Assembly: GCA_005883355.1 (NCBI GenBank)
Contig: VAXG01000036.1
Span: 1-64,000 of the forward strand
DNA length: 64,000 nucleotides
Direction of reading: 5' to 3'
Source of the DNA: Actinomycetota bacterium
Lineage (GTDB): Bacteria; Actinomycetota; Thermoleophilia; Gaiellales; Gaiellaceae
The position numbers and the translations under genes are program-made. Shown piece by piece: positions 7,863 to 11,617 of the stretch (its first letter is position 1; the number at the start of each line of letters is the position of its first letter). The notes beneath the pieces were generated by a model. It was not told the DNA's origin. It worked only from the letters and a program-made list of their open reading frames with translations, and did no database searches.

Positions 7863-9345
7863 GTGAAGGCTCGTTGTCGAACCGCAGATACGGCTCCAAT
7901 CCGTGGCGCCCCCCCTCCCGGCCGAAGCCGGATTCCTTGTAGCCGCCGAACGGCGACGACGGATCGAACCGGTTGAACGTGTTCGCCCAGACGACACCGG
8001 CGCGCAAGCGCTCGGCCATCCAAAGGATGCGCGAGCCCTTCTCGGTCCAGACACCCGCGCTGAGGCCGTAAGGCGTGTTGTTCGCCTTTTCGACCGCCTC
8101 CTCGGGCGTGCGGAAGGTGAGAACCGACAACACGGGCCCGAAGATCTCCTCCTGCGCGATGCGATAGCTCTGCGCGACGTTGGTGAAGACCGTCGGCACG
8201 AACCAGTAGCCCTTCTCCGGTAGCCGGCACGGCGGCTGGTAGATCTCGGCGCCCTCCTGCTCGCCGGATTCGACCAGCTCGCGAATCTTTTCGAGCTGTT
8301 GCTCGGAGTTGATCGCTCCGACGTCGGTGTTCTTGTCCAGCGGATCGCCCACGCGAAGGGTCGTGAGACGGCGCTTGAGCTTCTCGACGACAGGCTCGTA
8401 GATCGATTCCTGCACGAGGAGGCGCGAGCCGGCGCAGCAGACGTGCCCCTGGTTGAAATAGATGCCGTTGACGATGCCCTCGACCGCCTGGTCGAGCGCG
8501 GCGTCGTCGAAGATGATGTTCGCGGCTTTGCCGCCGAGCTCGAGCGTGAGCTTCTTCCCGGTTCCCGCCAGTTCGCGCTGGATCGCCTTGCCGACGTCGG
8601 TGGAGCCGGTGAAGGCGATCTTGTCGACGTCTTCCGACTTCACGAGCGCAGCGCCCGTCCTTCCGTCGCCCGTGACGATGTTCACGACTCCCGGCGGAAG
8701 CTCGGCCTGACGCAAGACGTCGGCGAAGAGAAGGGCTGACAGCGGCGTCGTTTCCGCCGGCTTGAGGACGACGGTGTTGCCGGCCGCCAGCGCCGGCGCG
8801 ATCTTCCAGGAAAGCATCAGCAGCGGGAAGTTCCACGGGATGATCTGACCGGCCACGCCCACCGGTCGCGGCCGGCGGTTCGGGAACGCGTACTCGAGCT
8901 TGTCCGCCCAGCCTGCGTAGTAGAAGAAGTGCGCCGCGGCCAGCGGGAGGTCGACGTCTCGCGACTCCTTGATCGGTTTGCCGCCGTTGAGCGACTCGAG
9001 CACCGCAAACTCTCGCGAACGTTCTTGCAGGATGCGCGCGATGCGGAACAGGTACTTCGCGCGCTCTGCAGCCGAAATGCCGGACCACCCGTTCTCGAAG
9101 GCGTCACGCGCCGCAGCGACTGCCGCCTCCACTTCCTCGGGAGTCGCCTGGCCGACCTCGGCAAGAGGTTCCTCGGTCGCCGGAGAGATCGTCGTGTAGG
9201 TCTCGCTCGGCTCGAGCCACTTGCCGCCCACGTAGTGCCCGTAGCGTTCGTCGAGGCTGACGACATCCCGAGACTCAGGCGCGGGCGCATACGCCCACTC
9301 CTTCGGAACCGGGGTGCGATCGTGCTTTCGCTCGAGGTCAGTCAA
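7855..9345 (-). CDS. NAD(P)-dependent aldehyde dehydrogenase
   Basis: Full-length (496 residues) aldehyde dehydrogenase that oxidises an aldehyde to the acid or acyl product. The family marks are in order: [10 protein letters not shown], the cofactor-binding [11 protein letters not shown], the general-base Glu in [10 protein letters not shown], the catalytic Cys in [11 protein letters not shown], and [13 protein letters not shown]. It starts with TTG and overlaps deoC by 8 nt. Downstream of deoC its likely substrate is acetaldehyde released from deoxyribose 5-phosphate. That is inferred from context only. Confidence 0.9.
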
Positions 9346-10276
9346 CGGTGAAGTAGTCCGGGCTTTGGTAGGCGCCGGTCTTTTCCTTCCGGAGCTGCAT
9401 CAGGACGTCGTTGAGGAGCGACGATGCGCCCAGACGGTAGAGGTCGGGAGTCAGCCACTCGACCCCGAGTGTCTCGTGCAGCTGGACGAGATACTGGACC
9501 GCTTGCTTGGCTTGGCGGATGCCACCCGCGGGCTTCATCCCGATCATCCGTCCGGTCTCTTCGTACACGTCGCGGATCGCTTCGAGCATGCAGAGGGTCA
9601 CCGGAAGCGTGGCCGCGCCCGGCAGCTTGCCCGTCGACGTCTTGATGAAGTCCGCGCCGGCAGCCATCGCGAGGAGCGAGGCTCGCCTGACGTTGTCGTA
9701 GGTCCCCAGCTCGGCCACCTCGAGGATGACCTTCAGGTGCGCGTCGCCCGAAGCCTCTTTCACCTGGACGATCTCGTCGTAGACCTTCGCGTAACGGCCG
9801 GAGAGGAACGCGCCACGGTCGATCACCATGTCGACTTCGTCGGCACCGTGTTCAACGACCCAGCGCACCTCCTCGAGCTTCGTCTCGATCGGCGACTGAC
9901 CCGAGGGAAACGCGGTCGCAACCGATGCGACCTTGACGCTCGTCCCCTCCACCCGGGCGACCGCGGACGGAACCAGATTCGGATAGACGCAGATGGCGGC
10001 CACCGACGGGATCCCGGCATCGCTCGGATCGGGCCGGATCGCCTTGGACGCCAACGCGGCCACCTTTCCAGGGGTGTCCTGGCCCTCGAGGGTCGTGAGA
10101 TCCATCATTCGCACCGCAAGCTCGAGCGCAAAGACCTTGGCCTCGCGCTTGATCGATCGCTTCGCGAGCGAGGCAGCCCGCTCTTCGAGCGCGACCGCGT
10201 CGACCGATCCGACGCGAGGCAGCCGAGGCTCGAGCGGAAGCTCAAAACCGCGTGGGAGAACGGGCGCCTGCGCCAT
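9338..10276 (-). CDS. deoC: deoxyribose-phosphate aldolase
   Basis: Cleaves 2-deoxyribose 5-phosphate to acetaldehyde and glyceraldehyde 3-phosphate in deoxynucleoside catabolism. It is a 312-residue TIM barrel. The Schiff-base lysine is in ADFIKTSTGK, the second active-site lysine is in MIGMKPAGGIR, and the aspartate region is EVDMVIDRGAF. The N-terminus is some 50 residues longer than in the E. coli enzyme. The ATG is fixed by a TACACT box 6 nt upstream. It heads an operon with two aldehyde-dehydrogenase-family genes and the TrpC-like gene. Confidence 0.93.
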   Translation of the reverse strand: MAQAPVLPRGFELPLEPRLPRVGSVDAVALEERAASLAKRSIKREAKVFALELAVRMMDLTTLEGQDTPGKVAALASKAIRPDPSDAGIPSVAAICVYPNLVPSAVARVEGTSVKVASVATAFPSGQSPIETKLEEVRWVVEHGADEVDMVIDRGAFLSGRYAKVYDEIVQVKEASGDAHLKVILEVAELGTYDNVRRASLLAMAAGADFIKTSTGKLPGAATLPVTLCMLEAIRDVYEETGRMIGMKPAGGIRQAKQAVQYLVQLHETLGVEWLTPDLYRLGASSLLNDVLMQLRKEKTGAYQSPDYFTVD

Positions 10277-10282
10277 GCGCTG

Positions 10283-10288
10283 AGTGTA
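10283..10288 (-). promoter_or_regulatory. -10 box TACACT for leaderless deoC operon
   Basis: TACACT on the minus strand, then 6 nt (CAGCGC), then the deoC ATG. The outermost hairpin of the adjacent palindrome occupies the position where a -35 element would lie. Confidence 0.6.
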
Positions 10289-10300
10289 GCTCCCTCGATC

Positions 10301-10750
10301 CGAGCGAAAGCTTCGCTTTCGCTCGGGGTTGGGTACGGCGCTTCGCGCGTAACGTGCGCGGGCGGAGCCCGCGCACTCTTGCCGCGTCTGCGGTTGGCGG
10401 TTGATGTCAACCGTGTGGGCACGGGCGCGAAAGCGTCCGCGCCCACATCAGTACGCCTGCGGCTAAGCCCGGCTTCGCCTGGTCTTAGCCTCCGGCCTTT
10501 GAGTCGGACGCCGCACGAGGGGATCTAAGGCTCTCAACCCGCCGCAATCCCACGGGCCGGAGGTTAGAGCAGGCGCAGCCGCGCTAACCGCAGGCCGAAC
10601 TTAAGGGGGTGGCGACGCTTTAGCGCCGCCACCCCCGCGGTTGAGATCAATCGCCAGCGTCAACCCAAACTGGAGTGCGCGGGCTCCGCCCGCGCACGTT
10701 TTCCCGCGAAGCGGCGTCACCAAAGCCGGAGCGAAAGCGCAGCTTTCGCG
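10301..10750. repeat. composite 450-bp palindrome made of nested hairpins
   Basis: The gene-free interval between era and deoC. Each half carries the same short hairpins in mirrored order around about position 10525. They are A (10301-10325 / 10731-10749), B (10354-10376 / 10675-10697), a linear segment C (10393-10415 / 10636-10658), D (10415-10446 / 10605-10636) and E (10455-10497 / 10555-10596). Hairpin B has arms GTGCGCGGGC and GCCCGCGCAC around a 3-nt loop (GGA on the left, TCC on the right). The halves have diverged, with changes that keep pairing (E stem GGCTAAG/CTTAGCC against GGTTAG/CTAACC). No coding potential is convincing here. Confidence 0.85.
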
Positions 10751-10756
10751 TAGGAG

Positions 10757-11617
10757 TCAAAGGCCGAGGCGTTCCAGCGTCGCCTCGTCTCGGCGCCAGC
10801 GTGGCTTCACCTTCACACGCAATTCCAGATACACCGGATGCCCGACGAGCGCCTCGATCTCGGGCCGGGCCCGCCGGCCGATCTCCCGCACAACCGAGCC
10901 CCCTTTGCCGACGACGATCTGCTTCTGTGACTCGGTCTCGACGAGGACGTCGGCCTCGATCACCCGCTCGCCGAGCTCCTGCACCTCGACCGTGATCGCG
11001 TGGGGAATCTCGTCCTTCGTCAGGCGCAGCGCCTGCTCGCGCACGAGCTCGGCAATCTGCACCTCGACCGGGAGGTCTGTGCGCTGCTTCTGCGGGAAGT
11101 ACAACGGCCCTTCAGGAAGCAGCGCGACGAGCTCCTGGCGGAGCTCCTCGATGCCGTCGCCCGTCTTCGCGCTGACCGGATGGAGCGAATGGAAGTCGCC
11201 GAGCCTCGAGGCCGCTTCCATCTGCGTCGCGATGTGACCGCCTTTCAGCCGGTCGATCTTGTTCACGACGATGATCACCGGAACGCCGAGGTCGAACACG
11301 CGCCGCGCGACGAAGCGGTCTCCCGCACCGATCCGCTCGCGTGCAGAGAGCACGAGCAGGACCGCTTCGACGTCTTCGAACGACCTGTCCACCGTGCGCT
11401 GCATGTGCTCGGTGAGCGCGTCGAGCGGCCGCTGGAAACCCGGAAGGTCGGCGAGGACGAGCTGATAGTCGTCACCGTTCGCGATACCGAAGATCCTTCG
11501 CCGCGTCGTCTGAGGCTTGTCGGAGACGATCGCAACCTTTCCGCCGGCGAGTGCGTTCACGAGTGTCGACTTGCCGACGTTCGGCCGTCCCGCGACGGCG
11601 ACGAAGCCCGATCTCAA
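10757..11617 (-). CDS. era: GTPase Era
   Basis: Ribosome-assembly GTPase that binds the 3' end of 16S rRNA at the membrane-associated stage of 30S maturation. It has 286 residues. The G motifs are GRPNVGKST (G1), the switch-region TTRR, DLPG (G3) and NKID (G4). The C-terminal KH domain carries IVVGKGGSVVREIG. It starts with TTG, which overlaps the cdd stop (TTGA). It ends a run of coupled genes that includes ybeY, another 16S-processing factor. Confidence 0.96.
   Translation of the reverse strand: MRSGFVAVAGRPNVGKSTLVNALAGGKVAIVSDKPQTTRRRIFGIANGDDYQLVLADLPGFQRPLDALTEHMQRTVDRSFEDVEAVLLVLSARERIGAGDRFVARRVFDLGVPVIIVVNKIDRLKGGHIATQMEAASRLGDFHSLHPVSAKTGDGIEELRQELVALLPEGPLYFPQKQRTDLPVEVQIAELVREQALRLTKDEIPHAITVEVQELGERVIEADVLVETESQKQIVVGKGGSVVREIGRRARPEIEALVGHPVYLELRVKVKPRWRRDEATLERLGL

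Follow-up and report, generated by a model that had tools for sequence, protein, structure and literature searches.

A mobile family of nested palindromes at gene ends in Gaiellaceae-like Actinomycetota, with a RAYT as its possible partner

In this work, a palindrome of about 450 bp lying between deoC and era was found to be a full-length member of a dispersed repeat family, and it is close to certain that this family is mobile. The palindrome lies in a 64,000-nucleotide stretch of an actinomycetotal genome, hereafter the window (G000:C74:1-64000), and it consists of two oppositely facing half-units, each of which is a series of smaller hairpins. With moderate confidence, we regard it as a non-autonomous mobile palindrome that works as an oversized REPIN/BIME and is moved in trans by a RAYT.

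Layout of the element between deoC and era

Repeat searches, folding and a covariance model place the full-length element at positions 10301-10752, as an inverted heterodimer of two ~200-nt half-units and a ~56-nt centre. An earlier note on this DNA had described mirrored hairpin halves around ~10525 within 10301-10750. Direct and inverted repeat searches of the window recovered both arms, with their nested hairpins, where that note had placed them, and put the centre at ~10526; the proposed start holds, and the end has to be moved to 10752. Complementarity between the arms in the repeat search is 73% for 10351-10485/10566-10700, 87% for 10304-10334/10719-10749, and 76% for 10324-10352/10700-10728. 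The module order of a half-unit is A, A2, B, linear C, D, E, F. The left half-unit (10301-10497, forward strand) is of type 1 in the half-unit tree, and its first 78 nt score 101.9 bits with model R1. It begins with hairpin A (10300-10326), which has a 12-bp stem and a 3-nt loop, was delimited by inverted-repeat search and carries the family-specific pattern GCGAAAGCnnnGCTTTCGC. Hairpin A2 (10334-10351; TACGGCGCTTCGCGCGTA) was read from the sequence, and its helix is paired in 98% of cells. It is followed by hairpin B (10354-10376), with a 10-bp stem, and the single-stranded AAC just ahead of B is nearly invariant and may be a guide sequence. The linear segment C (10377-10396), hairpin D (10398-10413; CGGTTGATGTCAACCG, likewise read from the sequence), hairpin E (10414-10447) and the bulged hairpin F (10455-10497) complete this half, and B, E and F were all located by inverted-repeat search. 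A central spacer (10498-10553) separates it from the right half-unit (10554-10752, reverse strand), which is of type 2 in the same tree and scores 85 bits with model R1 for 10673-10752. On this side, hairpins F (10555-10596), E (10605-10636) and B (10675-10697) were found by inverted-repeat search and an imperfect D (10637-10653) by repeat search, and the right hairpin A occupies 10731-10749, with a modelled 5' end that lies 4 nt from the stop codon of era.

Both neighboring genes are on the reverse strand. The right end of the element is separated by 4 nt from the stop codon of era (10757-11617), which encodes a GTPase with a KH domain, and its left end by 24 nt from the ATG of deoC (9338-10276), which encodes an aldolase of the DeoC/LacD family. 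The earlier suggestion that the palindrome covers the -35 position of the deoC promoter was not borne out, as a search of 10200-10850 gave no sigma-70-like site and the element stops at that distance before the ATG. For the 450-nt strand, the folding energy is -323 kcal/mol, compared with -210 ± 6.7 kcal/mol for dinucleotide shuffles (z = -16.8). The values for the separate halves are -126 and -105 kcal/mol, and hence the form with small hairpins and the form with one large hairpin are both stable.

Copies, gene ends and empty sites

A DNA search of the window genome (G000) gave about 14 element sites. Among them is a second near-complete copy (C73:37006-37456, 93% identical), together with partial copies on contigs C117, C94, C28, C56 (two), C129, C40, C96 (two), C77 (two) and C71 and at C74:126707. 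The hairpin A pattern occurs 13 times in this genome, compared with none for the reversed control. At the DNA level, the family was found only in the genus of the window genome (8 of the 61 genomes searched), and two genus members gave no match. With a covariance model built on the stretch from hairpin A to hairpin B, it extends to genus g41 of the same family, with 23 matches in G112, 14-29 in most other element-rich genomes, and 4 in the fragmented G003. A second model gave strong matches in 11 of the 399 genomes of the class, again in two genera. The hosts are Gaiellaceae-like soil Actinomycetota from two genera of one family. In G112, the modules again come in the order A, A2, B, C, E, F, on stems that mostly differ in sequence, and inverted pairs occur at three loci. 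A search of viral contigs for exact copies of hairpin B found none. Contig ends fall within or beside elements in G009 (C139, C194, C210, C60) and G008 (C56), so the copy numbers of these draft genomes are likely underestimates. On C40 of the window genome, a second, degenerate hairpin A lies directly outside the first (L015:1530-1575), as if inserted beside a remnant. The earlier note had proposed a search of the genome and its relatives with the hairpins, and had held that a single, unconserved copy would speak against its reading; the search yields dispersed copies, and their architecture is kept in relatives.

The half-unit tree separates two types, with a support of 85/100 for the 28/11 split and weak support for most inner branches. 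By this tree reading, all seven full-length copies sampled (from G000, G008 and G009) pair one type-1 with one type-2 half, which makes the heterodimer of 450 bp the unit of inheritance. Moreover, copies cluster by genome (13 changes, compared with a shuffled mean of 22.8; reached in 0 of 200 shuffles), which points to lineage-specific multiplication.

The elements are placed tightly at gene ends. When genes were called with a simple codon model that had been trained on the window, 54 of the 66 hairpin-A ends faced a gene that is read toward them. At 41 of the 66, the end of the stop codon lies between -7 and +12 nt from the modelled start of hairpin A, compared with 1.0% of random positions, where the null takes all positions and not intergenic ones alone. 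Stop codons frequently overlap the foot of the hairpin, as in TGAGCGAAAGC and TAGCGAAAGC. Convergent genes can nearly touch in element-bearing genomes, as at the empty C96a site, and part of the stop-codon effect may thus reflect the sole harmless space.

The flanks of eight copies of the window genome were traced in nine relatives. The C96a site measures 191 bp in G000 and 8 bp in G005, where it is empty. The C117 element is absent in G002 and G006, as is the C129 element in G002 and G005, and the C56 element is nearly absent in G002 and G007. On the other hand, the same sites are occupied by full, half or mini forms in G003, G008 and G009. The distance between the boundaries of the C129 site is 427 bp in G009, 267 bp in G008, 243 bp in G000 and 91 bp in G003, so these copies, which are common to four genomes in varying form, are old enough to be shared and yet are changing. 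At C117, the orientation of the element differs in G008. The shared filled sites can reflect either inheritance or repeated insertion. Since the orthologous position is vacant in some relatives and occupied by a full, half or mini form in others, we conclude that the family is mobile, that it is decaying, and that it is not an assembly error. The dispersed copies, these empty sites, which the earlier note had proposed to look for, and the clustering by genome all support its option of a non-autonomous mobile element.

No clean empty site was found in the relatives for the window locus itself, where they have an FRG-domain gene or a different spacer. The FRG-domain gene lies between deoC and era in G009 (L086:1035-1865, with PF08867 confirmed) and likewise in G001, G004, G005 and G007; it is missing from this position in G000, G003 and G008.

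It is rather improbable that the long inverted repeats are the ends of a MITE, derived from a transposon, of the DDE type or another, with an autonomous copy that lies outside the draft genomes. Long inverted termini around a variable interior, the empty sites in relatives and a mini derivative that retains the ends alone (C74:126707-126791) would all fit such an origin. Against it, no target-site duplication was recognised at the aligned empty sites, where the flanks have diverged, and each end is a hairpin in which the outer base pairs differ between sites yet stay paired. Furthermore, no inverted pair enclosing a transposase and no autonomous copy were seen. The inverted pair on C77, 3.5 kb apart and the only kilobase-scale pair examined, was rejected as an autonomous version, as it consists of two separate elements with ordinary genes between them. 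The conserved palindromic architecture could also suit a chromosome-organising or protein-binding site; for the former, an option of the earlier note, supporting evidence was not found. We consider this role highly improbable, because presence varies at orthologous sites, two genus members gave no match in the DNA search, and placement is linked to gene ends. The chance that the palindrome is a collapsed inverted repeat is negligible: some copies do lie at contig ends of draft metagenome assemblies, but in three genomes the two arms of the heterodimer can be told apart, and the second genus also has inverted pairs. The matching structure in independent assemblies refutes the assembly error that the earlier note had allowed for.

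Stem upkeep and the case for an RNA

Covariation was assessed in 58 A-to-B sequences from several genomes, in an alignment that was fitted to the structure and hence leans to it. Here, 96.6% of stem cells are paired, and slid controls drop to 29-54%. Two-sided stem changes amount to 245 cells, compared with 72.5 in shuffles, and there are only 4 one-sided changes and about 5 G-U cells. The observation that differences between the arms preserve pairing therefore holds family-wide, and the covariation check proposed with it revealed coordinated substitutions in the stems, almost without G-U intermediates. The comparison of G-U with A-C mismatches (23 and 16 overall) gave no clear strand bias; hairpin F alone leans to G-U (15:3). 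Because G-U intermediates are scarce, we infer that Watson-Crick palindromes are kept up at the DNA level and not by selection on an RNA.

This bears on the idea that the family is a gene-end structured RNA, or a bidirectional terminator or mRNA-stability family, kept for its RNA function and spreading incidentally. The tight and often overlapping placement at stop codons, the strong covariation and a module order common to two genera are all in its favor. We nevertheless think it unlikely, since sites are empty or reduced in close relatives, no U-tract terminator was found, and neither the ratio of one-sided and G-U cells to two-sided changes nor the mismatch counts resemble selection on one RNA strand. 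A search of Rfam gave no match at the gathering score, only chance matches below the threshold. The structured-RNA option of the earlier note keeps the strong covariation on its side, but with so few G-U intermediates and an unclear strand asymmetry, a purely RNA role is not needed.

A candidate RAYT and comparison with known systems

The candidate partner in the window genome is a RAYT gene at G000:C114:14643-15083. Its product has the NHYH and Y-x-x-NP motifs, its sole PDB match is TnpA_REP (4er8), and the scores with NF047646 (REP-associated tyrosine transposase; cut-off 80) are 80.1 in G000, 90 in G005 and 86 in G009. Across the order, Y1 or RAYT-like genes are common, with 95 of 129 genomes carrying them. 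The subfamily in question, at ≥65% identity, occurs once each in G000, G001, G002, G003, G005, G008 and G009, the seven genomes rich in elements, and is missing from the rest of the order, where the next match has 55% identity. This nearest outside RAYT (G017:C117:13348-13788) belongs to a genome without the palindrome family and may own another repeat family. The RAYT locus is syntenic, and G006 and G007 lack exactly the RAYT gene with intact flanks. These two genomes have few or no elements, with 1-3 copies kept in G006 without a RAYT, and G004 has neither a Y1 gene nor an element. Together, the RAYT-positive genomes make up one side of the tree of the genus (support 81/90), so the co-occurrence counts as a single event, and a Fisher test for an association between RAYT and elements (1/120) was discarded for the same reason. 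Around 42 Y1 loci, no model match exceeded 17 bits. G112 has only distant RAYT-like proteins, of which the one tested scored 54 bits, below the cut-off; its loci L196-L213 offer an independent case for the partner question in a second genus. In all seven genomes (L048, L094, L097, L098, L099, L101, L105), the RAYT frame lacks a conserved stop and continues into the gene downstream.

We hypothesize, again with moderate confidence, that this RAYT is the mobilising enzyme. The hairpins would fold while the element is single-stranded, for example on the lagging strand, and the RAYT, as a trans-acting HUH/Y1 enzyme, would bind the folded hairpins, then cut and rejoin the ends, so that the heterodimer is copied or moved. 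Insertions would survive where they are least harmful, which in a compact genome may be directly after stop codons, and from its place at the stop codon, hairpin A would probably shape the 3' end of the mRNA. The exact Watson-Crick stems could be kept by selection for the single-stranded substrate, by template-switch correction between the arms, or by both. More tentatively, and with some doubt, the A-A2-B-C-D-E-F module in its head-to-head type-1/type-2 arrangement may be a new class that targets stop codons, serves as a RAYT substrate and perhaps regulates gene ends.

A published survey reports some RAYT groups without a recognisable repeat, and only insertion-sequence-type Y1 proteins in Actinobacteridae (PMC6006769). 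A RAYT-bearing Actinomycetota lineage with a large multi-hairpin repeat at its stop codons offers a testable candidate target for repeat-less RAYTs, and if the reading is true, the family would be a new composite class, a substrate for RAYTs with no known REP partner. The family also shows that REPIN-like units can exceed known REPs several-fold in size. Moreover, filled and empty orthologous gene ends are a natural experiment on the effects of stop-codon hairpins.

The Correia/NEMIS, RUP and BOX MITEs are small, modular, intergenic and folded, as is the palindrome family, which is set apart from them by description, since its module set and its host differ. REPINs are inverted doublets of short REPs, thought to be moved by RAYTs (PMC3116915). 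REPs measure 21-65 nt, the foot of their hairpin carries a guide of four nucleotides, and they often flank RAYT genes (PMC6006769). As in REPINs and BIMEs, there are two inverted palindromic units with hairpins within a hairpin (PMC3116915, PMC6006769). The two-level symmetry seen by the earlier note is thus real, but its claim that this fits nothing known was too strong, as REPINs and BIMEs are inverted hairpin pairs of far smaller size (PMC3116915). The likeness extends to dispersed extragenic sites in many copies, to heterodimers, which most REP families prefer over homodimers (PMC3733652), to decayed singlets, and to a genome with a single-copy RAYT at a fixed locus. On the other hand, the element is ~450 bp long with several modules per arm and units of ~200 nt, it lacks a GTAG/GGAG foot, the foot of hairpin A differs by site, the conserved AAC before B is not GTAG, and the host is Gaiellaceae-like. 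Unlike in a REPtron, the RAYT gene has no flanking palindromic repeats. Some RAYT-like genes are flanked instead by long terminal inverted repeats, and these TIRYT repeats resemble the family in that RAYT-like proteins are linked to long inverted repeats, some self-complementary and some in dispersed dimers (PMC3733652); in TIRtrons, however, the repeats flank the transposase gene, and the palindrome family was not found near the RAYT. The CGTC-tagged REPs likewise form head-to-head palindrome dimers that flank no transposase gene (PMC3733652), but they are short single hairpins with a CGTC tag, whereas the units here have many hairpins and no fixed tag at the foot of A. Because the GTAG foot and the REPtron arrangement are absent, we do not class the element as a canonical REP member, and the best reading is that it is REPIN/BIME-like in plan and in its likely enzyme type.
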